From: Streptomyces ambofaciens ATCC 23877
GTDB lineage: Bacteria; Actinomycetota; Actinomycetes; Streptomycetales; Streptomycetaceae
Reading direction: 5' to 3'
Length of the DNA stretch: 64,000 bases
Assembly: GCF_001267885.1 (NCBI RefSeq)
Contig: NZ_CP012382.1
Coordinates: forward strand, 310,001 to 374,000
Part shown: piece by piece, positions 18,291-29,993 of the stretch
Position numbering within the stretch: position 1 is the first letter of the stretch
Layout: each line of letters starts with the position of its first letter
Notes under the pieces: model-generated
Databases searched by the model: none
Told to the model about the DNA's origin: nothing
Seen by the model: only the letters and a program-made list of their open reading frames with translations
Program-made: the position numbers and the translations under genes

Positions 18291-20669
18291 TCATTTCCTC
18301 GTCTTGGTACTGGACTTCCTCCGTCGTTGCGCCGGCGTGACGGCGCCGCGGGGTCCTGCGGGCTCGTCCGGGCGCAGGCACTCGATCAGGTAGTCGCCGC
18401 TGTCGGGGGCGCGGGTTACTCCGTGTGTCTCGCTGCCGAAGCCGGGGAAGCGGCGGTCGAAGGACTCCAGGGCCTTGAGGTAGCGCAGGAGAGGGCCGTC
18501 TTCTTCCCCGATGTCTTCACCCGGCATGAGGACGGGGATGCCGGGCGGCGTCACGGTGACCATCGCCGCGGCGACGCGGCCTGCCGCGTCCGCCAGCGGG
18601 ATCCGTTCCGTGCCACCGCGGATCAGCCGCTGGTAGCACAGTTGGGGCGAGGCGACCGGCGTCGGGAGTTGCTGGAAGGCCGTGTCGAGCAGTTCGACCA
18701 GGCGGGCGTCGCGCAGGTGGGTGTGCATCTCCTGGCACAGGTCGCGCAGGCTACGTCCCGCGTAGCGCCGCGGGTGCTCGGCGACCAGGGCGGGCAGCAC
18801 GCGGTCGAGCGGGACATCACTGTCGTAGTGGTCCTTGAAGTCCATCAGGGCGTCCAGCAGCGTGCCCCACTTACCCTTGGTGATGCCCATGGAGAACAGC
18901 ACCAGCGTGGTGTAGCCGTCGGTCTTCTCCACGACGATGCCGCGCGTGGTCAGATAGGCGGTGAGGACGCGTGCCGGGACGCCCCAGTCCGACATCACAC
19001 CGCTCGCGTCGAGCCCCGGGCAGGTCAGGGTGACCTTGATCGGGTCGAGCATGGAGTAGCCGTCGGTCAGACCGGGAAAACCGTGCCAGTCCGCGTCGGG
19101 GTCGAGGTGCCAGCAGGACGCCTCGGTCCGCAGCAGGTCCGCCGGTGCCTCCTCGAACGGCAGCCGCGCCCCGCTCGCAGGGTCGGTCACCTCATCCGGC
19201 TGCCACACGCCGAAGAACCATGGCGGCCGGTCGCCTGCGGCCTCGATCCGCCGCCCGATCCGCACCATCTCCTGACGGAAACGGACGGCCTCCGAGATCG
19301 CCTCGTCGATCAGCCACTGCCCCTGCGGGCCGTCCATCATCGCCGTGGCCACGTCCAATGAGGCGATCATCGGATACAGCGGCGACGTCGTGCCGTGCAT
19401 CATCAGCGCCTCGTTGAACCGGTCGTGTTCCACCGGCGCTCGCGGGGCGGGCCGGACGTGCACCATGGCGCCCTGGGACAGTGCGGCCAGCAGCTTGTGG
19501 GTGGACTGGGTCGCGAAGATCGTCGGCCGATCGGGGCCCGGGAAGGTCTCCTCGTCCACCGCCATGCCGTAGCGCCCCGCGTAGAGCGGATGGAAGCGTG
19601 CGTACGCGAACCACGCCTCGTCGAAGTGCAGCCGGGGTGTGCTGGACGCGAAGGCCCGGGCCACCGTCGGCGACGCGTAACACACGCCGTCGTAGGTGGA
19701 GTTGGTGAGCACCGCGTACTGAGCACGCGGTGAGACCGCGTCCGCTGTGAGAGGGCTTCGCGCGATCCGCTCCGCCACCGAGTCCGCCGCGAGCTCGGTC
19801 GGAGGCAGCGGCCCGGCGAGCCCGTAGCCGTTGCGGGTCGGGACCAGGTACACCGGCCGGGCACCGGAGACGACCAGGCCGTGCAGAATCGACTTGTGGC
19901 AGTTGCGGTCCACCAGGGCGATCTCGTCGCGCGTCACACTGAAGTGGCCGACCAGGCGGTTGCAGGTGGAGTCACCATGCAGGACGAAGTACGTGCGGTC
20001 GGAGCCGAAGACGCGCGCGGCGTTGTGTTCCGCCTCGCCGATCGGTCCGGTGTGTTCGAACAGGGAGCCGAGCTCCTCCACCGAGATCGACAGGTCGCTG
20101 CGCAGCAGCCGTTCCCCGAAGTAGTCGTGGAAGGCCCGGCCCACGGGCGACTTGAGAAAGGCGACGCCGCCGGAGTGCGCGGGGGTGTGCCATGAGTATT
20201 CGTGTGCGTCGTCGAAGCGCCGCAGTGCTTTGAAGAACGGCGGGAGCAGCGCGTCCTGGTAGCCGCGTGCGGCGGTGGTGATCCGCCCCGCGATGAACGC
20301 CGGCGTGTCCTCCAGCGGCCATACGTAGCCCACCACCGACTGCGACACCCACAGGGGCAGCTCACGCAGCCCTTCGTCCGCCATGACCAGGAACACCGGC
20401 AGGTTCCGGAACCGGCGCCCGATCCCGTGCAGGACCGTCGCGCCACCCGGCCCGTCCTCGGCTGCGGGCAGAAGGTCCCAGGCCACCACCGCGGCGGCCA
20501 AGCCGGCCTCCGTCCTGAGCACCGCCTCGGCGTCGGAGACGCTCACCACCCACCGGACCTGGAAGCCGCGCGCCCGGATGCCCTCGGCGATGCGCGTCAA
20601 CTGCCCAGCGGTGGCACACCTGTCTTCCGGGTGCTCCCTCACCGCCACCAGAACCGTGCCGTCAGTCAT
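18291..20669 (-). CDS. Orn/Lys/Arg decarboxylase, fold type I PLP enzyme
   Basis: The 792-residue protein has the domain order of biodegradative basic amino-acid decarboxylases: an N-terminal receiver-like wing (about 1-120), a large PLP domain with HGDSTCNRLVGH, HFDEAWFAY and the Schiff-base Lys392 in QSTHKLLAAL, and a C-terminal domain with PPGIPVLMPGE. It would convert arginine, lysine or ornithine to the polyamine and CO2. The ORF is open further upstream, but ATG 20669 has a GAGGGGGG ribosome binding site and begins the conserved part. A basic tail (RRRKSSTKTRK) is unusual. It is convergent with the crotonase gene; no antiporter is adjacent. Confidence 0.93.
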   Translation of the reverse strand: MTDGTVLVAVREHPEDRCATAGQLTRIAEGIRARGFQVRWVVSVSDAEAVLRTEAGLAAAVVAWDLLPAAEDGPGGATVLHGIGRRFRNLPVFLVMADEGLRELPLWVSQSVVGYVWPLEDTPAFIAGRITTAARGYQDALLPPFFKALRRFDDAHEYSWHTPAHSGGVAFLKSPVGRAFHDYFGERLLRSDLSISVEELGSLFEHTGPIGEAEHNAARVFGSDRTYFVLHGDSTCNRLVGHFSVTRDEIALVDRNCHKSILHGLVVSGARPVYLVPTRNGYGLAGPLPPTELAADSVAERIARSPLTADAVSPRAQYAVLTNSTYDGVCYASPTVARAFASSTPRLHFDEAWFAYARFHPLYAGRYGMAVDEETFPGPDRPTIFATQSTHKLLAALSQGAMVHVRPAPRAPVEHDRFNEALMMHGTTSPLYPMIASLDVATAMMDGPQGQWLIDEAISEAVRFRQEMVRIGRRIEAAGDRPPWFFGVWQPDEVTDPASGARLPFEEAPADLLRTEASCWHLDPDADWHGFPGLTDGYSMLDPIKVTLTCPGLDASGVMSDWGVPARVLTAYLTTRGIVVEKTDGYTTLVLFSMGITKGKWGTLLDALMDFKDHYDSDVPLDRVLPALVAEHPRRYAGRSLRDLCQEMHTHLRDARLVELLDTAFQQLPTPVASPQLCYQRLIRGGTERIPLADAAGRVAAAMVTVTPPGIPVLMPGEDIGEEDGPLLRYLKALESFDRRFPGFGSETHGVTRAPDSGDYLIECLRPDEPAGPRGAVTPAQRRRKSSTKTRK

Positions 20670-20875
20670 GCCGCCCCCCTCGCCCGGTGGCCCGCGCCAC
20701 CCTTCGACCAGTGTTCGCGGCCTGCACGCGCTTGGTCTTGAGATGGCCGTCCAAACCACCCCGACGGGTCGCGGCGTCGACCACTCCTTGACGTGTCGAT
20801 CCGGCGCGTCCGGAATCCCGTCGAAGTAGCAGACCACGGTCTTGCACATCGTCCCGGACATCACCGACTTCGTAA

Positions 20876-20890
20876 TGACATCCATTTTCA
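20876..20890 (+). promoter_or_regulatory. Zur-box-like site upstream of rpmF
   Basis: TGACATCCATTTTCA (reverse strand TGAAAATGGATGTCA) resembles the Streptomyces Zur operator (TGAAAATnATTTTCA type) with strong TGAAAAT and TCA arms. It lies 42 bp before the L32 start. Cysteine-free ribosomal protein paralogues are standard Zur targets, which supports the call. Confidence 0.7.
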
Positions 20891-20932
20891 TGTAACGTCT
20901 GTCTCGTTCACCGATCGCACCCGGAGGTCCCC

Positions 20933-21103
20933 ATGGCCGTACCCAAACGCAAGATGTCGCGCAGCAACACCCGGCACCGTCGCGCGCAGTGGAAGGCCAC
21001 GACGCCGCAGCTGGTGACGGTCACGGTGGACAGAGTGCCGTACCTCGTTCCCCAGCGGCTGGCCAAGGCGTACGCGCGCGGCCTGCTCCGCCCCGAAGCC
21101 TGA
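20933..21103 (+). CDS. rpmF: 50S ribosomal protein L32, zinc-independent paralogue
   Basis: This 56-residue protein starts [20 protein letters not shown], the typical L32 beginning. It has no cysteines at all, so it is the C-minus form that replaces the zinc-ribbon L32 during zinc starvation and frees zinc from ribosomes. A GGAGG ribosome binding site precedes the ATG, and a Zur-box-like site lies 42 bp upstream, matching known Zur control of such paralogues in Streptomyces. A CobW remnant follows immediately, as in other zinc-responsive ribosomal protein loci. Confidence 0.95.
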
Positions 21104-21384
21104 CACAGGCCGTCGCCCTCGTGCGCGGCGGCGAGGCCGCCCTGTCCCGCACCGAGGAACCCCTGGTCGGGATGACCAACGGGGGCAGCTGCCGCACCCT
21201 GCGCGACGACCTCCCGGAGGAAGGGGACCGGCTGGCGCGCGAGGGGCGTTTCGACCAGGCGTTCCTCGGTGGAGGAAGACGAAGCCCTGCCGCGTTTGAT
21301 TCCGTCACCTCCTGGGACACCTGCGGCATCGACGAGAGCTGCGCGCACGAGCACCAACCCCTCACGCCGGTGACGGAGCACTGA
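21104..21384 (+). pseudogene. CobW/COG0523 GTPase remnant
   Basis: Directly after the L32 stop a frame reads ALVRGGEAALSRTEEPLVGM, then TNGGSCRTLRDDLPEE and DRLAREGRFDQAF, ending at TGA 21384. This matches the stretch of CobW-family metal chaperones around the metal-binding GCxCCTLR motif. Here that motif is degraded (G-G-S-C-R-T-L-R), and the Walker A part and the C-terminal half are missing. It is therefore a decayed gene. CobW paralogues are common members of Zur regulons next to L32, L31 and L33 genes, so this remnant fits the locus history. Confidence 0.7.
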
Positions 21385-21388
21385 TACC

Positions 21389-21431
21389 CCGGGCCGGGCG
21401 GTGGTCGCAGCCACGGCACCGTCCGGCCCGG
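21389..21431 (+). terminator. Strong hairpin ending the rpmF-cobW transcript
   Basis: CCGGGCCGGGCGGTG (21389-21403) pairs with CACCGTCCGGCCCGG (21417-21431), a 15-bp stem with a single G-T wobble, starting 4 nt after the CobW remnant stop. Confidence 0.75.
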
Positions 21432-21809
21432 CACATACCGCGCTGCTGCGCCCGCCTCTCCTCTACCAGGGGTGGCGGTTTTCCTGTCCGCGCATCCCGA
21501 CGCCGCGTGGTCGAGAGCGGCACCAAGCCCAACACACGCCACGAGCGTGCCGACAACGGCAGCGCCCGCTGGTCCGGGCTCGGCCTACCCGATGCGATCG
21601 ACCCGCTCCGGCGCTGCTTCACGAACAGCCGGCCCCCGCCAGCACGCCGCCCTCAGCGACGTCCAGGCACGTTTGCACTGGTACCCCCTGATCCGGCCCA
21701 GCCGGCCAGCCGGCGCGGGGTGCATGTGCACTGGCCTCACGCACCCTCACCCCCCCGGACCCCGGCCGGCCCGATCGCCACTCCCCCGCCGGCGGACGCC
21801 TGTGGCGGC
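21432..21809. other. Intergenic stretch without a supported gene
   Basis: I find only Pro/Arg-rich shadow frames between the rpmF terminator and the end of the zinc-regulated operon. No further hairpin, repeat or start signal was noticed. Confidence 0.5.
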
Positions 21810-22823
21810 CTACCTGAGGAGTGCTCCCTCGGGCGCGGGTGACCCGTCCCAGCTCATACGGGACCACGGGAGGGTCAGTTCGTCCGTTCGGCTCACCGTC
21901 TGAGGGGTCAGGTCCTCGATCCGTGCGGCCTCCCGGTGCCGGGCGAACACGGTGTCGACGTAGCGGTGGCCGGTGTCGGCGGCGATGAACAGGGCGGTAC
22001 GGCGGGGCTCTTCGTGGCGTTCCCACCGGGCGGCGAGGTAGGCGGCTCCGGTGGACAGGCCCGCGAACACGGCGTGGCGGCGCAGCAGGTCGACGCTGCC
22101 GGCGAGGGCGGCGTCGAAGGCCAGCCAGTGCAGGACGTCGTAGAGGTCGTGGCGGACGTTGCCGAAGGGGATGGAGCTGCCGATGCCGGCGATGATGATC
22201 TCCGGGTCGGCGACGTGTCCGCTGCCGAAGGTGACGCTCCCGTAGGGCTGGACGCCCACGAGTCGTACGTCGACGGAGCGTTTCCTCAGGTAGTGGGTGA
22301 GGGCGCCGGTGGAGGCCCCGGAGCCCACTCCGCCGACCAAGGTGAGGCAATCGCCGCCGCTCCGGGCGTATATCTGTTCGGCGACGGCTTCGTAGCCGAG
22401 GTAGTGGATGTCGTCGTGGTACTGGCGCATCCAGTGGTAGTCCGGGTGTTCCCGCAGGATCTCGCGCACCCGGGCGACACGGCGGTTCTGGTCGAGTTTG
22501 AGGCTGTCGCTGGGCGGCATCTGCTCCAGGTGCGCACCGAGTACGTCGAGTTGCGTGCGCAGGGTGTGGTCGACGGTGGTGGAGCCGACGATGTGGCAGC
22601 GCAGGCCGTGGCGGTGGCAGGCCAGGGCGAGTGCGTAGGCGTAGATGCCGCTGGAGCTGTCGATGAGTGTGTCGCCGCGTCGTACGGCTCCGGTGTCGAG
22701 CAGGTGGCGTACGGCGGCGAGGGCGGAGACGACCTTCATGGTCTCGAAGCGCAGGCAGAGGAGGCCGTCTTCGAGGCGTATCAGGTCCGGGCGGCCGATG
22801 GCTTCCGAGATGTGTTCGTCCAC
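21810..22823 (-). CDS. PLP-dependent cysteine-synthase-fold enzyme (SbnA-like)
   Basis: The 337-residue fold type II PLP enzyme has the likely Schiff-base Lys30 in RFETMKVVSA, the substrate-loop equivalent DSSSGIYAYALA, the glycine-rich phosphate loop VGGVGSGASTGAL and GLSTGA near the PLP ring nitrogen. The set is divergent from cysteine synthase (no NxSGS-K-R block), nearer to diaminopropionate-type synthases such as SbnA. It would replace a beta leaving group on an amino acid with an amine or other nucleophile. GTG 22823 has GAGGAG 5 nt upstream and overlaps the kinase gene end by 43 bp. It is the last gene of the Zur-box operon. The kinase next to it could supply a phospho-amino-acid substrate. 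Confidence 0.82.
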   Translation of the reverse strand: MDEHISEAIGRPDLIRLEDGLLCLRFETMKVVSALAAVRHLLDTGAVRRGDTLIDSSSGIYAYALALACHRHGLRCHIVGSTTVDHTLRTQLDVLGAHLEQMPPSDSLKLDQNRRVARVREILREHPDYHWMRQYHDDIHYLGYEAVAEQIYARSGGDCLTLVGGVGSGASTGALTHYLRKRSVDVRLVGVQPYGSVTFGSGHVADPEIIIAGIGSSIPFGNVRHDLYDVLHWLAFDAALAGSVDLLRRHAVFAGLSTGAAYLAARWERHEEPRRTALFIAADTGHRYVDTVFARHREAARIEDLTPQTVSRTDELTLPWSRMSWDGSPAPEGALLR

Positions 22824-23785
22824 GGGAACTCCTCGCTGATGGGGGACGCGAAGGTGGTGAAGGTCCGGGTCGGTGTGATGCCCTCCCGGTCCAGGGCACG
22901 GGTGCAGCGGCGCAGCCCGTGGTGCAGGCCGGGAGCGCGGGGGTCGAAGAGGATGCCGGCGACGTTGCCGCTGTGGGCGATCTGGACGCCGACAGCGCCC
23001 GTGCTGTCGGCGATGCCGGTGAGGGCGGGGAACTCCTGGTGGCGCAGGACGCGTTGGCGCAGGCGCGCACTGGCGGTGCTGACCCGGCCGAGCAGGGCGG
23101 TGTCGGCGGCGGTCACCGCGCGGCGGAGCATGCGGCGCAGGTGCCCGTAGGCGGCGAGGTCGTCGTCGTGGTGGAGGGCGGGGAGGGAGAGGGTGTCGAC
23201 CGGGGCTCCTCCCGCGAGCGCGCACCCGACCACCACGGCGGGCGGCAGCGCGGCGCCCAGCACTTCGAGGATCCGGCCCTCGCGCTGCGCGAAGAGCAGA
23301 GGGTGCGAACCGTGCATCAGGGGGTCGCTCGCGCCTTCGGCGCGCACCGCGATCCGGGCGATCGTCTCCGCCGGCAGCGGCACGCCCCAGGAGTCGGCGA
23401 CCGCCCGCACGGTGGCGATGACGTCGCTGGTGGAGGAGCCCATGCCGAGGCCGATGGGCAGGTCCCCGGCGAGGGTCAGCTCCCCGCCGCAGGGCTCCGC
23501 GTCACGGTGTGCGGCGCACTCCCGTACCGCGAGGAGGGCCGCCGCCCGTGCCTTGGTCCGGCCGGCGGGTGTCACCGTCACCTCGTCCGGCGCGCTGCCG
23601 GGCCGGTGCGCGAACCGGGCGGTGCTGCCCGGTCCGTGCATCGGCAGGGTGACCAGCGCGTGGACGGGGCGACGCCGCCGGTCGAGGAAGACGCCTTGCA
23701 GGATCTCGCCGTGATGGCACGCGGCGCGCCCGGTGCCCTCCGTGTCCCTGGCGGAGGGCACCGTTCGGCGGGTGGTGGCCGTCAT
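22781..23785 (-). CDS. GHMP-family kinase, L-threonine kinase (PduX)-like
   Basis: The 334-residue protein has the three GHMP motifs: an N-terminal CHHGEILQGVFL of the PduX-like type, the ATP loop PIGLGMGSSTSDVIATV, and the C-terminal HSGNVAGILFDP. PduX makes O-phospho-L-threonine for cobalamin synthesis. No cobalamin genes are nearby, and the gene sits between a putative metal-chelation protein and a PLP beta-replacement enzyme, so I infer that it phosphorylates a hydroxy amino acid (Thr or Ser) for the metallophore pathway. The ATG at 23785 overlaps the upstream stop (ATGA), so translation is coupled. Confidence 0.82.
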   Translation of the reverse strand: MTATTRRTVPSARDTEGTGRAACHHGEILQGVFLDRRRRPVHALVTLPMHGPGSTARFAHRPGSAPDEVTVTPAGRTKARAAALLAVRECAAHRDAEPCGGELTLAGDLPIGLGMGSSTSDVIATVRAVADSWGVPLPAETIARIAVRAEGASDPLMHGSHPLLFAQREGRILEVLGAALPPAVVVGCALAGGAPVDTLSLPALHHDDDLAAYGHLRRMLRRAVTAADTALLGRVSTASARLRQRVLRHQEFPALTGIADSTGAVGVQIAHSGNVAGILFDPRAPGLHHGLRRCTRALDREGITPTRTFTTFASPISEEFPWTNTSRKPSAART

Positions 23786-24591
23786 GCGTCGGCCGCCACC
23801 CGGTAGCGGTACAGGGTGGTGGGTTCGGCGCTGAACTGGGAGAAGGGGAAGGGCTCCGCGGACAGAGCGGTCACGCCCAGTCCGAGGAAGGCGCGCGCCA
23901 CGGCGCTGCCGGTCTGGGCGTAGACCACCAGGGGGACGCCGCGTTCGCGGCAGCGGGCCAGGACGGTGTCGAAGCTGCCGTTGCCGAGGGTCATGCCGGT
24001 GGCCACGACGGCGTCGGCGGTGTCGAGGACTTCGTACATGTCGTCGGTGACCGGGTCGCCCCACTGGGTGGTGCGCAGGTTGAAGTCGCAGAGCAGGGGA
24101 TCTCCGCCGCGCTCGCGGATGGCCGCGACGAGCGGGTTGACCACCCCGATCAGAGCGACCTTGGCCCCGGCCTCGATGTCCAGCAGCCCGGCGATGGCCG
24201 CGTCCCTGGCCCGCGCCCGGGTCTCGGGTGTCCCGGCGGGCAGGGTGACCGGTTGCGCCTCGGCCGCCTCCCGGTGCGGGCGGACCGAGCTGAGGTAGGC
24301 GTCGAGCGCGGCGATCCGCAGCGGCATCGGCGCCTCGCGCAGCAGGGTGTCGACGGGGGTACCGGAGGCGTCGTGGCATATGGACGGGTCGACCTCCCCC
24401 GCCTCGAAGGCGCAGCCACCGAAGGAGTCCCCCAGGCGGACGAGGACGTACTGGTTGAGGTAGGTGGTGTTCCCGCCGGCCAGCCGGGTGCCGTGGTGCG
24501 CCCAGAACACGCTGGTCGCGACGAGGTCGGCGGGACGGGGGCCGTGCTCGCCCGCGAGGACGGCGGCCAGGAGCTCCTCGGTGTTCTTCAT
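23782..24591 (-). CDS. DUF4213/DUF364 putative heavy-metal chelation protein
   Basis: The 269-residue protein has an N-terminal domain with SVFWAHHGTRLAGGNTTYLN and SFGGCAFEAGEVDPSI, the pattern of the enolase-N-like DUF4213. A Rossmann-like DUF364 domain follows (KVALIGVVNPLVAAI, ADAVVATGMTLGNGSFDTVL, VPLVVYAQTGS). The family is annotated as putative heavy-metal chelation; its reaction is not known to me. It follows a GGAGG ribosome binding site and overlaps the methyltransferase stop by 4 nt. In this Zur-box operon it may bind or act on the metal-ligand intermediate. Confidence 0.8.
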   Translation of the reverse strand: MKNTEELLAAVLAGEHGPRPADLVATSVFWAHHGTRLAGGNTTYLNQYVLVRLGDSFGGCAFEAGEVDPSICHDASGTPVDTLLREAPMPLRIAALDAYLSSVRPHREAAEAQPVTLPAGTPETRARARDAAIAGLLDIEAGAKVALIGVVNPLVAAIRERGGDPLLCDFNLRTTQWGDPVTDDMYEVLDTADAVVATGMTLGNGSFDTVLARCRERGVPLVVYAQTGSAVARAFLGLGVTALSAEPFPFSQFSAEPTTLYRYRVAADA

Positions 24592-25346
24592 CGCCGTCCT
24601 CCGGTGCGGGGCGTGTCGTGGGTGATGCGAAAGAGGAAGGTCAGCACGCCGTCCTGCCAGTCGTGGAGATGGTCGATGCGAGGGCTGAGCCCGTGGTCCA
24701 GGGCGTGTTGGACCAGGGCCCGCAGATCCGCTGTGTTGGAGGCGATGACGTATATCTCGCCGCCGGGGGCCAGCAGGTCCTTCTCCGCGATCTGCGCGAA
24801 GAACTTCGCCATCAGCGGCGCGCCCACGCACACGTTGCGTACGACGTCGGGGTCGTCACTGACGGTCTGGCTGACGGCGGGCGGGTTGAAGGTGACGACG
24901 TCCAGCTGGACGTCGTCGGGAAGGGCGTCGAAGACGTCGCTCACCGCGGGGAGGAACGCGGTGTCCGGGCGCTCGCCGATCAGGCGCCGGTAGTAACCGG
25001 TGGCGGCGGCCACGCTCTCCGGGTGGACGTCGAGCGCGTGGACCTCCCGGGCGCCCCGGATGCCCGCCGCGACGGCCTCGACGCCCAGGCCGACGCCCAT
25101 GGCGGCGTACCGGAGACCGCGGGTCTCGATACGGCCGTCGAGCACCCGCTCGTGGATCAGGCGGCTGGTCCAGCCGGGTATGAAGACGCCGGGCGGTACG
25201 TCGAACGTCCAGCCGTTCCACTCGTAGGAGCGAGTGGTGTGCAGGTCCGCCTTGGGCTGGTTGAGGGCGATGATCCGGTCGGCGGGCAGGGGCGGGGGCA
25301 ACTGCTCGAGGAGAGCCTGGCCGGTCGAGTCACGGTCTGTGTCCAT
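24588..25346 (-). CDS. SAM-dependent methyltransferase with NPPA motif
   Basis: The 252-residue class I methyltransferase has the SAM motif AAMGVGLGVEAVAAG, an acidic ribose-binding residue in VHALDVHPES, and motif IV VTFNPPAVS. NPPA/NPPY motifs are typical of enzymes that methylate planar or amide nitrogens (PrmC/HemK-like). A conserved N-terminal segment EWNGWTFDVPPGVFIPG recalls these enzymes. It is the first gene after a strong hairpin that separates transport from biosynthesis genes. N-methylation of a metallophore precursor is inferred from context only. Confidence 0.85.
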   Translation of the reverse strand: MDTDRDSTGQALLEQLPPPLPADRIIALNQPKADLHTTRSYEWNGWTFDVPPGVFIPGWTSRLIHERVLDGRIETRGLRYAAMGVGLGVEAVAAGIRGAREVHALDVHPESVAAATGYYRRLIGERPDTAFLPAVSDVFDALPDDVQLDVVTFNPPAVSQTVSDDPDVVRNVCVGAPLMAKFFAQIAEKDLLAPGGEIYVIASNTADLRALVQHALDHGLSPRIDHLHDWQDGVLTFLFRITHDTPRTGGRR

Positions 25347-25402
25347 GGGTTCCTGGGTCCTTTCCTTGTGATGCGAGGGGAGAGCGCGGGCGCGCTGAAG
25401 TG

Positions 25403-25442
25403 CGGCCTGCCCGGCGGGCGTTCACGTCTGCCGGGCAGGCCG
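25403..25442 (-). terminator. 13-bp perfect hairpin inside the operon, between transport and biosynthesis genes
   Basis: CGGCCTGCCCGGC (25403-25415) pairs completely with GCCGGGCAGGCCG (25430-25442) around a 14-nt loop. It lies 16 nt after the stop of the binding-protein gene and about 55 bp before the methyltransferase start. It probably acts as a partial terminator or a 3' stabiliser that lets the transport genes be expressed more strongly than the enzymes. Confidence 0.65.
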
Positions 25443-25458
25443 TGGTGGGCGCGAGGAC

Positions 25459-26469
25459 TCAGCCCTTGAGTTCGCGCAGGTAGGTGGCGAACTTCTCCAG
25501 GCCGTCGATGTTGCGGGGGCCGCTGATGCCCTCGTTGTAGTCGAGGACGAAGAAGTTGTTCTTCTTCACGGCCGGGAGTTCTCTGGTGTGGGGGGACTTC
25601 TTCAGGAAGTCGATCTTCTTCGCGGCGGGCAGGTCGCCGTAGTCGAGGATGACGACGACTTCGGGCTCGGTCTCGGCCACGGATTCCCAGTTGACCTGCG
25701 TCCAGCGCTCGTCGAGGCCGTCGAAGACGTTCTTGCCGCCCGCCGTCCTGATGATGTCGTCGGGGGGCACTTGGTTGCCCGCGGTGAACGGCTGGTCGGT
25801 ACCGGAGTCGTAGAGGAAGACGGGTACCGGGTCGCCGTCCGGGGCCTTGGCCGCGACCTCCGCGACGCGCTTCTTCAGCCCGGCCACGACGTCGGTGGCC
25901 TTCTCCTCGATTCGGAAGATCTTGCCCAGCCGTTCGAGGTCGGTGTAGAGAGCCTCGAAGGGTCTCATCTTCTCGGGGTGGCCCGGATAGTTGAAGCAGC
26001 TCTCGGTGTGCATGAAGCTCTGGATGCCGAGCTTGTCCAGGATCTCGGGCGTGATGCCCCGCTCGTCCTTGAAGCCGGAGTTCCAGCCGGCCACGACGAA
26101 GTCGGACTTGGCCTCGACCACGACCTCCTTGTTCAGGAGGTCGTCGCTGAGCATCTTCACCTTCGCGTACTCGGACGCCCACGGGGACTCGCTCACCGGC
26201 GGATTCGCGGGAGGCATCACGTAGCCGTGCACGTGCTCGGTCAGACCGAGGGCGAACAGCTTGTCCGCACTGCCGCCTTCGTAGGCGACGGCCCGCTCGG
26301 GCACCGTGTACTCCACCGGTTCACCGCAGCGCTTGACGGTGACCGTGCCGGAATCCTTGGCGTCCGACGCGACCTCGGCACCGCATCCGCTGAGCACCAG
26401 GGCCGCCGCCAGGGCGGAGCCGAGCGCGGCAGGCCGGCGGACCGCGGCGAGGGTTCGGGTTGTACGCAT
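25459..26469 (-). CDS. Metallophore ABC transporter substrate-binding lipoprotein
   Basis: The 336-residue protein begins with a lipoprotein signal peptide; the lipobox LVLSGC gives the lipidated Cys29. The body is of the FepB/BtuF class (type III binding protein): KLFALGLTEHVHGYV, KSDFVVAGWNSGFK, LGKIFRIEEKATDVV and VVVILDYGDLPAAKK. The family binds Fe-siderophores, haem or cobalamin. The Zur-box upstream of the operon argues for a Zn-metallophore complex here. It is the third gene of the operon, 14 nt after the ATPase gene. Confidence 0.9.
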   Translation of the reverse strand: MRTTRTLAAVRRPAALGSALAAALVLSGCGAEVASDAKDSGTVTVKRCGEPVEYTVPERAVAYEGGSADKLFALGLTEHVHGYVMPPANPPVSESPWASEYAKVKMLSDDLLNKEVVVEAKSDFVVAGWNSGFKDERGITPEILDKLGIQSFMHTESCFNYPGHPEKMRPFEALYTDLERLGKIFRIEEKATDVVAGLKKRVAEVAAKAPDGDPVPVFLYDSGTDQPFTAGNQVPPDDIIRTAGGKNVFDGLDERWTQVNWESVAETEPEVVVILDYGDLPAAKKIDFLKKSPHTRELPAVKKNNFFVLDYNEGISGPRNIDGLEKFATYLRELKG

Positions 26470-26483
26470 GCGTGAGTAGCCTT

Positions 26484-27257
26484 TCAGCGGGTGGAGTTGA
26501 GCGAGTAGAGGAGCTGGGGATCGCCCGTCAGCGGGTGAGGGACGACGCTGGCACTGACGCCGAAGACGTCACCGACGAGCTCTCTCGTGAGCACTTCCGC
26601 GGGTGTGCCGGAGGCGACCAGGCGGCCCCGGGAGAGCACGCCGAGCCGGTCGCAGGCCGCCGCGGCGAGGTTGAGGTCGTGCAGGACGACGAGGACGGTG
26701 AGGCCGGAGGCGCGCAGGAGCGAGAGCAGGTCGACCTGGTGGCGGACGTCGAGGTGGTTGGTCGGCTCGTCGAGGACGAGGATCTCCGGTTCCTGTACGA
26801 GCGCGCGGGCCAGCAGGACGCGCTGGCGCTCGCCGCCCGACAGCGTCATGACGCCCCGGTGCGCGAGGTGTCCGATGTCGAGCTGTTCCATCGCCCGCTC
26901 GCACAGCTCGCGTTCTCCGCCACTGAGCGCCTGGTTCCCGCGCAGGTGGGGCGCGCGTCCGAGCGCGACGACCTCCTCGACCGTGAAATCGAAGTCGACG
27001 CCCCCGTCCTGGGTCATGGCGGCGATGGTCCGTGCGCTGTGGCGCATCGGGAGCCGGGTCAGATCCTGCCCACCGACCCAGACGGTTCCCGAGCTGGGCC
27101 GCAGCGCCCGGTACACGCACCGCAGCGCGGTGGACTTGCCGCTTCCGTTGGGTCCCACGAGCCCCACGACCTGACCGTCAGGCACCGCCAGGGACAGCCC
27201 GCGCACGAGGCTCCTGCCGTCCGTCACCACGGACAGTTCATCGAGTTTCAGGTCCAC
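26484..27257 (-). CDS. Metallophore ABC transporter ATPase
   Basis: The 257-residue ATPase is of the FepC/FecE/BtuD class. Walker A is GPNGSGKSTALRC, the signature is LSGGERQRVLLARAL, Walker B is ILVLDEPTNHLD, and the H-loop lies in VVLHDLNLAA. It energises import by the adjacent FecCD permease. The GTG start is one base after the permease stop, with GGAGGG upstream inside that gene. Confidence 0.95.
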   Translation of the reverse strand: MDLKLDELSVVTDGRSLVRGLSLAVPDGQVVGLVGPNGSGKSTALRCVYRALRPSSGTVWVGGQDLTRLPMRHSARTIAAMTQDGGVDFDFTVEEVVALGRAPHLRGNQALSGGERELCERAMEQLDIGHLAHRGVMTLSGGERQRVLLARALVQEPEILVLDEPTNHLDVRHQVDLLSLLRASGLTVLVVLHDLNLAAAACDRLGVLSRGRLVASGTPAEVLTRELVGDVFGVSASVVPHPLTGDPQLLYSLNSTR

Positions 27258-27258
27258 C

Positions 27259-28425
27259 TCAGCGCCCTCCGAAGGTGTAGCCCCTGTGCCGCATCAGGGC
27301 GATGAAGACGGGCACGCCTACGAGCGCGGTGATGACCCCGAGCGGCAGCTCGCGCGGTGCCACCAGGGTCCGCGCCGCCAGGTCGACCCACACCATGAAG
27401 ATCGCTCCGACCAGCGGGGCCACGGCGAGTACGCGGGCGTGTGTGGCGCCGACGACCATCCGCACCACATGCGGCATCACGAGTCCGACGAAGGCGATGG
27501 CACCACTGACGGCGACCATGACGCCCGTCACCAGCGAGACGAGCACCAGCAGCACCCTGCGGTGCCGGTCGGGATCGAAGCCGAGGCTCGCGGCGGTCTC
27601 GTCGCCGAGGGAGAGCACGTCCAGCGCCCGCCCCTGCCGGTACAGGACCGCGAGGCCGGCCAGCACGACCACGGAGACGACGGGCAGCGCGCCCCAGGTC
27701 GCGGCACCGAAACTGCCCATGGTCCAGTACAGGACCATGCTCGTCGCCTCGCTGTCCGGGGCGACATAGATGATCAGGCTCATGACAGCCTGGAAGCCCA
27801 GGGACATGGCCACGCCCGTCAGGACGAGGCGCAGCGGCGACAGCGAGCCCCGGCCGGCGGAGGCGGCGTACACCAGGAGCGAGGCGACGAGCGCACCGAT
27901 GAAGGCACCGACGGAGACGGCGTACATGCCCAGTGCGGCGAACCCGCCGGTGACCGTGATCCCGACGGCGCCTACGGAGGCGCCCGAGGAGACCCCGAGA
28001 ACGAAGGGGTCGGCCAGCGCATTGCGCACCATGGCCTGGATCGCCACTCCGACCGCACTCAGTCCGGCGCCCACCAGCGCCGCGAGCAGCACGCGCGGCG
28101 TACGGATCTGCCAGATGATCTGATACGTCGTCACCTCGTCGCGGCCGATGCGCCCTCCGCTGAGAGCCGCCCACAGGTGGCGGGCGGTCTCCCCCGGGGT
28201 GACGACCGCGGGCCCGAGCCCGATGGCGACGACGACGGACACGAGCAGGAGGGCGGCCAGCGCCGCACAGTTGAGGAGCAGCACCTTCCGGGACGCGAGT
28301 CGAGCACGCACAGCCCTCGCGGGCCGGGGCGCCGGCGCCTCGGCCGGGTCGACCGCGTCTACATCCGCGTCCGCGTTCGCCGAGGACGCGGAGCTCAAGG
28401 GCGGAGGCTTGTGCGGCACCTTCAC
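27259..28425 (-). CDS. Metallophore ABC transporter permease (FecCD family)
   Basis: The 388-residue permease has a Pro/Ala/Asp-rich cytoplasmic start (about 1-45). About nine to ten membrane segments follow, with typical family blocks: QIIWQIRTPRVLLAALVGAG, DPFVLGVSSGASVGAV, FVGLVMPHVVRMVVG and PRELPLGVITALVG. It would form a homodimeric channel for a metal-chelate complex. GTG 28425 has GAGGGGGA just upstream. It is the first gene of the operon, and a Zur-box-like palindrome at 28439-28453 lies 14-28 bp before the start, so repression would block the whole operon. Confidence 0.93.
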   Translation of the reverse strand: MKVPHKPPPLSSASSANADADVDAVDPAEAPAPRPARAVRARLASRKVLLLNCAALAALLLVSVVVAIGLGPAVVTPGETARHLWAALSGGRIGRDEVTTYQIIWQIRTPRVLLAALVGAGLSAVGVAIQAMVRNALADPFVLGVSSGASVGAVGITVTGGFAALGMYAVSVGAFIGALVASLLVYAASAGRGSLSPLRLVLTGVAMSLGFQAVMSLIIYVAPDSEATSMVLYWTMGSFGAATWGALPVVSVVVLAGLAVLYRQGRALDVLSLGDETAASLGFDPDRHRRVLLVLVSLVTGVMVAVSGAIAFVGLVMPHVVRMVVGATHARVLAVAPLVGAIFMVWVDLAARTLVAPRELPLGVITALVGVPVFIALMRHRGYTFGGR

Positions 28426-28438
28426 TCCCCCTCGCTAA

Positions 28439-28453
28439 TGAAAACCATGTTCA
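28439..28453 (-). promoter_or_regulatory. Zur-box-like operator of the metallophore operon
   Basis: TGAAAACCATGTTCA has the arms TGAA and TTCA of the Streptomyces Zur operator and matches a TGAAAATGATTTTCA-type consensus at 12 of 15 positions. It overlaps the expected promoter of the permease gene. The known iron box for DmdR1 (TTAGGTTAGGCT type) is not seen here. Confidence 0.7.
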
Positions 28454-28556
28454 TGTGCAGGAACCTAGCATGCCTCCGACCCGGCAGGAAGCCCGGACCG
28501 ACTGGCGACACAGGGCCGCGACGCTCGTCGCGAGGATGCGGCCGACAGCACTCTAA

Positions 28557-28571
28557 TGGAAATGATTATCA
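28557..28571 (+). promoter_or_regulatory. Zur-box-like operator upstream of the MFS gene
   Basis: TGGAAATGATTATCA matches the same consensus at 13 of 15 positions. It lies about 140 bp before the MFS start, on the other side of the divergent intergenic region, 104 bp from the operon box. The exporter would thus share zinc control with the import and biosynthesis genes. Confidence 0.7.
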
Positions 28572-28709
28572 CTGCGATAGTGTGGTGCCCGCGCCGTGCC
28601 GCCCGCCGTGTGCCACGGCCGGTCCCGTGCCAACCTCATTGCCGGGCAAGGACGTTGGAGCCGGTTCGCGTCCGACCCGTCGCCACCGACAGGACAGGAG
28701 TACTTCCTC

Positions 28710-29993
28710 GTGCCCACCCCCTCCGCCCCTCCCAGCGCCGTCGAACCCCCTCCCGCGAAGCAGCGCTCGATCCTGCTCGACGTGCCCTTCCTCCGCCTCT
28801 GGACGGGCGCCACCGCATCGGGCCTGGCCACCTGGGCCCTGCCTTTCGTCCTCGGCCTCGCCGTCTTCGACCGGACCTTGGCCGCCACCGACCTCGGCCT
28901 GCTGCTCGCCGCACGTACCGTCGGGTTCCTCGCCGCGGTGCCCGTGGCAGGGGTGCTCGCCGACCGGCACTCGCGCCGGGGCGTCGTGCTGTGGGCCGGA
29001 CTCGCCTCCGGAGCCGCAGCACCGGTGATCGCCGCCGGGCTGGACCGTTCGGTGCTGTTGATGGCGGCGGCCGCCGCGGTGGCGGGAGCGGGCCAGGGTG
29101 CCTGCCGTCCCGCCTACCAGGCCCTCACCGCCGAGGTGGTCGACGCCGGTCGCCGGCAGCAGGCCAATGCCGCGATGACCCTGGCGGTACGGGTCACCAC
29201 GCTCGTGGGCCCCTCCCTGGCCGCGCTGCTCGCCGTCTTCCTGGACACGTGGGCCCTGTTGGTGGGCATCGGGCTGCTCTGGCTCGTCGCGGCCTGCGTT
29301 CCCGGACGCGGCGCACGGCCCGAGACCGCGGACGACACGTCGAAGCCTCCGGCCGGGGCGGGCAGGGCGTCCTTCCTGGCCGAGTTCACCGAGGGCGTCC
29401 GCGAGGCGCGCCGGCACCCCTGGTTCCTCGCCGGTCTGGGCGCGCTGACGGCCGTCATAGCCACCGGCTACTCCGCGACCGGCGTCGCCCTGCCCATGGT
29501 CAGCAGGGACGAGTACGGAACCGAGGTCGTCCTCGCGGGCGCGATGACCGCCTACACCGCCGGAGCGCTGGGCGGTGCCCTGCTCATGGCCCGCTGGCGC
29601 CCGCGCTCCCCTGGTTGGGCCGCCCTCGCCGGCCTGGCCTCCTACGGCTTCGCCCCGCTCAGCCTGGTCTTCCCCGTGCACCCGGTCGCCGTGATGGCCG
29701 CCTACGCCGTCGCGGGCGTCGGTATCGAACTGTTCAACGTGCCGTGGTTCACCGCCGCCCAGCGCGAGGTCGCCCCGGACAAGCTGGCCCGTGTCTCCTC
29801 ACTGGACTTCCTGCTCTCCTACGGCCTCGCCCCGATCGGACTCGCCGTCATCGCCCCCGCCATCGACGCCTTCGGCGCCACGGCGGTCCTCGCGGCTTGC
29901 GCGCTCATCTGCTTCGCGGCACCCGCCACCGCCGCCCTCGCCCCCAGCGCCCGTGCCTTCTCGACCGCACGAAGGGGAAGCGACGCCCGCTGA
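28710..29993 (+). CDS. MFS transporter, probable metallophore exporter
   Basis: The 427-residue transporter has twelve predicted membrane segments and the enterobactin-exporter-like MFS pattern: FLRLWTGATASGLATWALPF, the loop GVLADRHSRRGVVLW, and ACRPAYQALTAEVVDAGRRQ. GTG 28710 follows an AGGAG about 10 nt upstream. It is divergent from the import/biosynthesis operon, with its own Zur-box-like site. Export of the newly made metallophore is the natural reading, though direction and substrate are inferred. Confidence 0.88.
   Translation: MPTPSAPPSAVEPPPAKQRSILLDVPFLRLWTGATASGLATWALPFVLGLAVFDRTLAATDLGLLLAARTVGFLAAVPVAGVLADRHSRRGVVLWAGLASGAAAPVIAAGLDRSVLLMAAAAAVAGAGQGACRPAYQALTAEVVDAGRRQQANAAMTLAVRVTTLVGPSLAALLAVFLDTWALLVGIGLLWLVAACVPGRGARPETADDTSKPPAGAGRASFLAEFTEGVREARRHPWFLAGLGALTAVIATGYSATGVALPMVSRDEYGTEVVLAGAMTAYTAGALGGALLMARWRPRSPGWAALAGLASYGFAPLSLVFPVHPVAVMAAYAVAGVGIELFNVPWFTAAQREVAPDKLARVSSLDFLLSYGLAPIGLAVIAPAIDAFGATAVLAACALICFAAPATAALAPSARAFSTARRGSDAR

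Follow-up and report, generated by a model that had tools for sequence, protein, structure and literature searches.

A candidate Zur-controlled zincophore locus with a DUF364 protein in Streptomyces ambofaciens

To our knowledge, few zincophores of actinomycetes have been described. The opine metallophores staphylopine and pseudopaline, and also coelibactin, are linked to zinc and have dedicated transport, and in the synthesis of staphyloferrin B an SbnA-type pyridoxal phosphate (PLP) enzyme acts on a phospho-amino acid, in the SbnA/SbnB route to 2,3-diaminopropionate. Pseudopaline and coelibactin are reported to be under the control of the zinc regulator Zur (PMC6103462), and in the actinomycete Amycolatopsis japonicum Zur is described as repressing the aminopolycarboxylate metallophore ethylenediaminedisuccinic acid (EDDS) (PMC9252823, PMC6103462). 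In fungi, aspergillomarasmine A (AMA) is reported to sequester zinc, and AMA synthase to add O-phospho-L-serine to L-aspartate (PMC8319579). The locus analysed here lies at 21810-29993 of a 64,000-nucleotide stretch of Streptomyces ambofaciens ATCC 23877 (NZ_CP012382.1, positions 310,001 to 374,000; hereafter the window), which is part of an 8.39-Mb genome. As judged from its sequence and from those of its relatives, its eight genes, confirmed at these positions, probably form a zinc-starvation locus, repressed by Zur, for making, exporting and re-importing a small aminocarboxylate zincophore.

Zur-type boxes and the genes they precede

The motif reported for Zur in Streptomyces is tGaNNatSatNNtCa / taaTGaNAANNNTTNtCANta (PMC5472717). 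The genome was scanned with the pattern TGAAAATNATTTTCA at up to two mismatches, alongside a control pattern, and in the whole 8.4 Mb the Zur pattern was found at five places and the control at none. Two of the five lie in the window, in the gap between a permease gene and a divergent gene of the major facilitator superfamily (MFS): the box TGAAAACCATGTTCA at 28439-28453, preceding the permease gene, and the box TGGAAATGATTATCA at 28557-28571, preceding the MFS gene, which score 29.3 and 33.1 respectively with the matrix described below. A third place is at znuA (L094) and a fourth lies between L28/S14 in one direction and type B L31 in the other (L095), these genes being read from their translations; znuA and ribosomal-protein genes are given as known kinds of Zur target (PMC6103462). 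At up to three mismatches the window holds three matches to the pattern, compared with a mean of 0.03 in 100 shuffles, so that its Zur-like sites exceed chance by far. The promoters of both units thus carry the Zur regulon motif, with mismatches, as an earlier note on this DNA had claimed, and binding of Zur is predicted there. The fifth place in the genome (L096, G000:C1:6782371) precedes a gene for a NikA-like lipoprotein of SBP_bac_5 type, near an acetyltransferase-like frame, and this gene possibly encodes an importer of another zinc complex.

The minus-strand unit begins with a FecCD-type permease (27259-28419; PF01032, E 1.4e-88), an ATPase of FecE/F420-0 type belonging to an ATP-binding cassette (ABC) transporter (26484-27257; no NCBIfam cut-off reached) and a lipoprotein-type substrate-binding protein with a Peripla_BP_2 domain (25459-26469; PF01497, E 1.3e-23). 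All three parts of a FecCD metal-chelate importer are present, and a metal-chelate substrate is predicted. After a gap of 112 bp come four enzyme genes on the same strand, encoding a class I S-adenosylmethionine-dependent methyltransferase with a HemK2/N6AMT1-like fold and the motif FNPPAVSQ (24588-25346), a DUF364 protein that is the hallmark of the cassette (23782-24591), a GHMP kinase resembling PduX and ThrB (22781-23785; PF00288, E 1.6e-13) and an SbnA/CysK-like PLP enzyme of fold type II with a GTG start (21810-22823; PF00291, E 4.5e-33). The enzyme genes look translationally coupled because of their overlaps, which are 4 bp between methyltransferase and DUF364, 4 bp between DUF364 and kinase, and 43 bp between kinase and PLP enzyme. 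The MFS exporter is encoded divergently on the plus strand (28596-29993; PF07690, E 8.4e-32). Comparison with a related locus, L036, makes a start at 28710 more likely for this gene, in which case the gap to the permease gene is 290 bp instead of 176 bp.

These coordinates and Pfam matches confirm the gene order, strands and kinds of protein listed in the earlier note. The note had also described a single minus-strand operon; the common strand stands, and one transcript from the permease gene to the PLP gene is likely, the 112-bp gap being a reason for caution. In some relatives (L035, L038, L048) the enzymes are encoded in a unit of their own, which has its own Zur-like box.

Conservation of the cassette and its boxes

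Two sets of loci were compared. The kinase set comprises 60 loci gathered by similarity to the kinase (L032-L091), 30 with DUF364 and 30 without it, and the DUF364 set comprises 80 loci with named records, namely the best 80 of the 276 obtained by searching with DUF364. A full-flank subset consists of 61 of these 80 loci, each of at least 18 kb. A Zur matrix was trained on 44 sites in the DUF364 set, and the best score over the whole fetched stretch was taken for each locus. This score was between 24.5 and 40.9 in 29 of the 30 kinase-set loci with DUF364 (-6 in the last, a contig of 3.5 kb), and at most 10.6 in all 30 without DUF364. At L065 the best-scoring box precedes a ZigA-like gene and another box precedes the cassette.

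The position of the sites was examined in the 80 DUF364-set loci, where 42 sites with up to two mismatches were found in 64 kb of cassette promoter gaps versus two in 192 kb of other gaps. With up to three mismatches allowed, 58 loci have a site in the cassette promoter gap, and 17 of the other 22 have a matrix score of at least 16.9, which brings the loci with a box to 75 of 80. Among these 17, the sites of L132 and L153 lie inside frames drawn by a simple gene caller, and those of L174 and L179 lie some 5 kb upstream, in front of transporter genes preceding the cassette. No box was found in the remaining five loci (L115, L136, L137, L147, L163), whose contigs end near the cassette.

Relatives of the kinase, the PLP enzyme and the methyltransferase are mostly from Streptomyces, among at least 120 matches listed for each, and the organisms of the DUF364 set include Streptomyces, Amycolatopsis, Prauserella, Pseudonocardia, Umezawaea, Actinokineospora, Actinophytocola, Actinopolymorpha and Thermocrispum. 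All 61 full-flank loci have DUF364, by selection, and all have the PLP enzyme and an MFS exporter of one of two types; one of two sets of FecCD importer is present in 56, the kinase in 51 and the methyltransferase in 27. When searched across genomes, the four-enzyme cassette of the earlier note is therefore constant only in its PLP enzyme and DUF364 protein, and the methyltransferase, proposed there as a finishing enzyme, is optional. A 2-oxoglutarate oxygenase of TauD or PhyH type adjoins or lies inside the cassette in 16 of the 61 (for example L036:15934-16722, L065:10475-11248 and L166:8149-8928), and these oxygenases are likely to be tailoring hydroxylases that diversify the product.

The DUF364 cassettes L164, L166, L167, L168, L171-L173, L176, L178 and L179 have no kinase gene. 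Genomes could be searched for 10 of 11 kinase-less loci (L174 was left out), and that of L180 was searched in addition. A PduX-like kinase was not found at E 1e-8 in six of the ten genomes, the completeness of which is not stated, and the other four hold only weak PduX-like kinases elsewhere (E 1e-20 to 1e-28). In L180 the cassette has a kinase of another type, and the genome holds a strong PduX-like kinase. These results contradict the proposal that the kinase step is required throughout the family. Because the kinase is dispensable, the PLP enzyme and DUF364 appear to be the fixed biosynthetic pair, and the kinase-less cassettes offer a useful natural experiment on the choice of phospho-amino acid by the PLP enzyme.

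Proposed route and alternative explanations

The best NCBIfam model for the PLP enzyme is SbnA (TIGR03945), with 135.7 bits, and the cut-off of 349.95 is not reached. Its substrate loop reads DSSSGIYA, and its motifs are common to the cassette relatives. The lysine carrying PLP is likely to be K30 in RFETMK, three residues before the aligned stretch, at the position where CysK-type enzymes carry it. The kinase would act on an amino acid; one close relative is annotated by its source as 'involved in propanediol utilization'. The DUF364 protein reaches the gathering score of PF04016 (E 9.5e-13) and has the fold, and the DUF4213 domain also attributed to it gave no Pfam match at E up to 0.1. Two DUF364 proteins with structures, Dhaf4260 (3l5o) and PH1506 (3npg), are 14 and 20% identical to it and come without a function either, and the passages found in the open-access literature of PubMed Central (PMC) give no activity for DUF364.

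Zur control could also fit a product that stays inside the cell, such as a zinc-sparing or zinc-buffering metabolite or cofactor, with the ABC system importing, for instance, a corrinoid- or F420-like compound. The best NCBIfam models for the ATPase, the permease and the binding protein are indeed those of a putative F420-0 transporter, all below cut-off, and both the FecCD set, of which there are two, and the exporter vary from cassette to cassette. However, importer swapping is usual for metallophore clusters, and the MFS exporter, which occurs in every full-flank locus and has its own Zur box here, points to secretion. We consider an intracellular product improbable.

A second alternative is that the route ends in free 2,3-diaminopropionate or 2,3-diaminobutyrate, to be built into the product of some other pathway, which is also what has been proposed for relatives in nonribosomal peptide synthetase (NRPS) clusters. 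In L052-L064, which are mostly NRPS clusters, the kinase is 42-47% identical (13 loci) and the PLP enzyme 30-36% (10 of those 13; L055, L062 and L064 have the kinase without the PLP gene). In the NRPS clusters L052, L053, L060, L063 and L070 these two genes are accompanied by an argininosuccinate-lyase-like enzyme, and in all of these except L070 by a separate ATP-grasp enzyme as well. Such a set fits a route in which phosphorylation is followed by displacement with aspartate, after which the diamino acid is freed and fumarate lost. The lyase-like enzyme was found at E 1e-15 in 20 of the 30 loci without DUF364, but in none of the 30 with it and in none of the 80 loci of the DUF364 set, where one match of 31% (L111) appears at E 1e-5; nor was an NRPS or ATP-grasp gene found with this type of cassette. 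Release of a free diamino acid is thus very unlikely. Because the lyase was not found in the cassettes, the product of displacement would stay an N-linked polycarboxylate, and this, together with the precedent of AMA synthase, makes an AMA-like zincophore our best guess. That the product binds iron, cobalt, nickel or copper, with zinc control incidental, can hardly be expected: iron chelates or B12 are the usual cargo of FecCD and Peripla_BP_2 systems, and Pfam labels DUF364 no more specifically than 'putative heavy-metal chelation', but at up to five mismatches there is no iron box in the window and only two in the 60 kinase-set loci (L084, and L091 at 198, more than 3 kb from the cassette), and zinc-specific aztABCD and ZigA-like genes occur as neighbours.

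For the preferred explanation, a zincophore that is secreted and retrieved, we propose the following route. When zinc is scarce, Zur would leave the boxes and both divergent units would be transcribed. The kinase would turn a hydroxy-amino acid into its O-phosphate; L-threonine is the better guess for this substrate because O-phosphoserine is already a primary metabolite, and threonine would be the likely starting point in cassettes with the dedicated kinase and phosphoserine in those without it. By analogy with AMA synthase, the SbnA-like enzyme would eliminate the phosphate via an aminoacrylate-type intermediate and add the amine of, for example, aspartate or glutamate, and with no lyase step the N-linked polycarboxylate would be retained as the ligand. 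DUF364 would carry out a finishing step of unspecified kind, probably at its interdomain cleft, and in some species the methyltransferase, with its NPPA motif, may N-methylate the product. Export of the ligand would fall to the MFS protein, and retrieval of the metal complex to the lipoprotein and the FecCD ABC transporter. The kinase and PLP chemistry suggested earlier thus finds support by analogy, the pair recurring with a lyase in NRPS clusters, and not as an obligatory sequence for the family, while Zur control, metallophore-type export and import, and an NRPS-free route to a small molecule are supported at the sequence level.

Several points weigh against this proposal. The strict core motif from chromatin immunoprecipitation, at zero mismatches, matches four other places in the genome and none of the five found here, neither window site included. 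The training sites of the matrix came from loci related to those scored, with some genomes in both sets, although this leaves the negative group unaffected. The cassette is variable, the kinase being missing in 10, the methyltransferase in 34 and FecCD in 5 of the 61 full-flank loci, and most cassettes are without another zinc gene within the fetched stretch. The DUF364 family is without any known activity. Finally, the PLP enzyme falls short of the cut-off for SbnA, and in its loop, SSSGIYA, the Asn of the CysK-type SGN loop is missing; its substrate and nucleophile may therefore differ from those of SbnA or AMA synthase.

Related operons, neighbouring genes and known systems

Among 293 genomes sampled from the order, 117 have a match to DUF364 (E 1e-40 or better), 54 of them with the cassette type (E <1e-90) and 63 with a second class alone (E about 1e-63 to 1e-75). 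In ten hand-picked loci of this class (L190-L199), genes for an ATP-grasp protein, DUF364 and a PLP enzyme always stand in a row. In the three that were fully listed (L190, L192, L196), these genes are followed by one for a further enzyme and by MFS, methyltransferase and binding-protein genes, Pfam assigning the further enzyme of L190 to MR_MLE and its binding protein to SBP_bac_5. Nine of the ten have a Zur-matrix site of at least 21.9, and the other has one of 13.3. A broader interpretation, to which we give about even chances, is that DUF364 is a signature enzyme of a large, so far undescribed Zur-controlled zincophore family in Streptomyces and other actinomycetes, and represents a new enzyme class finishing or cyclising the zinc ligand. 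Type I would comprise the PLP enzyme, DUF364 and FecCD import, with kinase, methyltransferase and 2-oxoglutarate oxygenase optional, and would be a bacterial counterpart of aspergillomarasmine synthesis; type II would comprise ATP-grasp, DUF364, PLP enzyme, an enolase-superfamily protein, methyltransferase and SBP_bac_5 import.

An iron-box-like site is present in addition at 10159 of L194, a locus of the second class. A paralogous locus in the S. ambofaciens genome itself (L083, G000:C1:6492000-6511000) and the loci L081, L082 and L085 encode a distant kinase (30%) and PLP enzyme (64%), together with an ATP-grasp ligase with a LAL_C2 domain, an MFS protein, a methyltransferase and a FecCD importer. 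No DUF364, Zur-type box or iron box was found in loci of this type, and L085 has one Nur-box-like site. They probably represent another metallophore-like pathway under other control.

Three genes adjoin the cassette in L036. One, with a Zur box, encodes a ZigA-like GTPase (523 bits against an NCBIfam cut-off of 600); the others encode an O-methyltransferase and a Fur-family protein, the gene of the latter having a Zur-like site. The same set is found in a different order at L065, its Fur-family gene scoring below the NCBIfam cut-offs. In L077 AztA and AztB, and in L176 AztC and AztD, exceed their cut-offs. At E 1e-15 and within the fetched stretch, at least one such zinc neighbour (AztA-D, ZigA-like or Fur-family) is present in 4 of the 30 kinase-set loci with DUF364 versus none of the 30 others, and in 5 of the 61 full-flank loci.

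In the window, the region 20876-21650 starts with a third Zur-type box, TGACATCCATTTTCA (20876-20890; matrix score 26.8), followed by ruins of zinc genes whose intact order is kept in L036. Two plus-strand fragments of a decayed, ZigA-like gene for a COG0523 zinc-chaperone GTPase (21112-21375) are 78% and about 64% identical to separate parts of L036:4954-6141, and a decayed O-methyltransferase fragment (21507-21629, plus strand) is 63% identical over 41 residues to the gene that follows the ZigA-like gene there. Assignment of this box to an Orn/Lys/Arg decarboxylase gene (18291-20891) was rejected, as the box fronts the ZigA-like fragments in the way that it fronts the intact gene in L036. 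The decarboxylase, which lies directly downstream of the cassette on the same strand, has no match in the 60 kinase-set or the 80 DUF364-set loci. Only two of seven other neighbouring frames have weak matches among the 80 loci, G17417 in one and a Ser/Thr-kinase frame in three (best 33-35%), and as a control all eight frames recover themselves in the window.

Given the 117 genomes with DUF364, zinc ligands overlooked by genome mining may be made by a large proportion of Streptomyces species; such ligands may escape notice for want of an NRPS gene to mark them. The DUF364 family, which has had a structure since 2010 but no function, gains a testable role, and a bacterial route to AMA-like zinc chelators is predicted. 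These chelators are of interest as metallo-beta-lactamase inhibitors (PMC8319579).

No description of this gene set was found in the open-access PMC literature, in line with the earlier note, which knew of no such pathway; subscription papers and preprints are outside that scope. No nicotianamine-synthase-like, opine dehydrogenase or NRPS domain was found by Pfam in the eight genes. As far as is known, the gene set for EDDS is different from this cassette. Staphyloferrin B differs in its SbnA, given the 135.7 bits against a cut-off of 349.95, and no SbnB-like gene was found by Pfam among the eight. In the diaminobutyrate-type NRPS modules the genes of a homologous kinase and a homologous PLP enzyme are adjacent, but a lyase and an ATP-grasp enzyme stand where the cassette has DUF364, and no Zur box was found. 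With aspergillomarasmine A the likeness is formal: a kinase and an SbnA-like enzyme without a lyase match the AMA route (PMC8319579), whereas a single synthase, itself a PLP enzyme, suffices there and here a kinase, DUF364 and a methyltransferase accompany the PLP enzyme. From its regulation and transport, the locus would be a metallophore locus and a variant of the NRPS-free zincophore kind, and the chemistry of DUF364 could raise its novelty beyond that.

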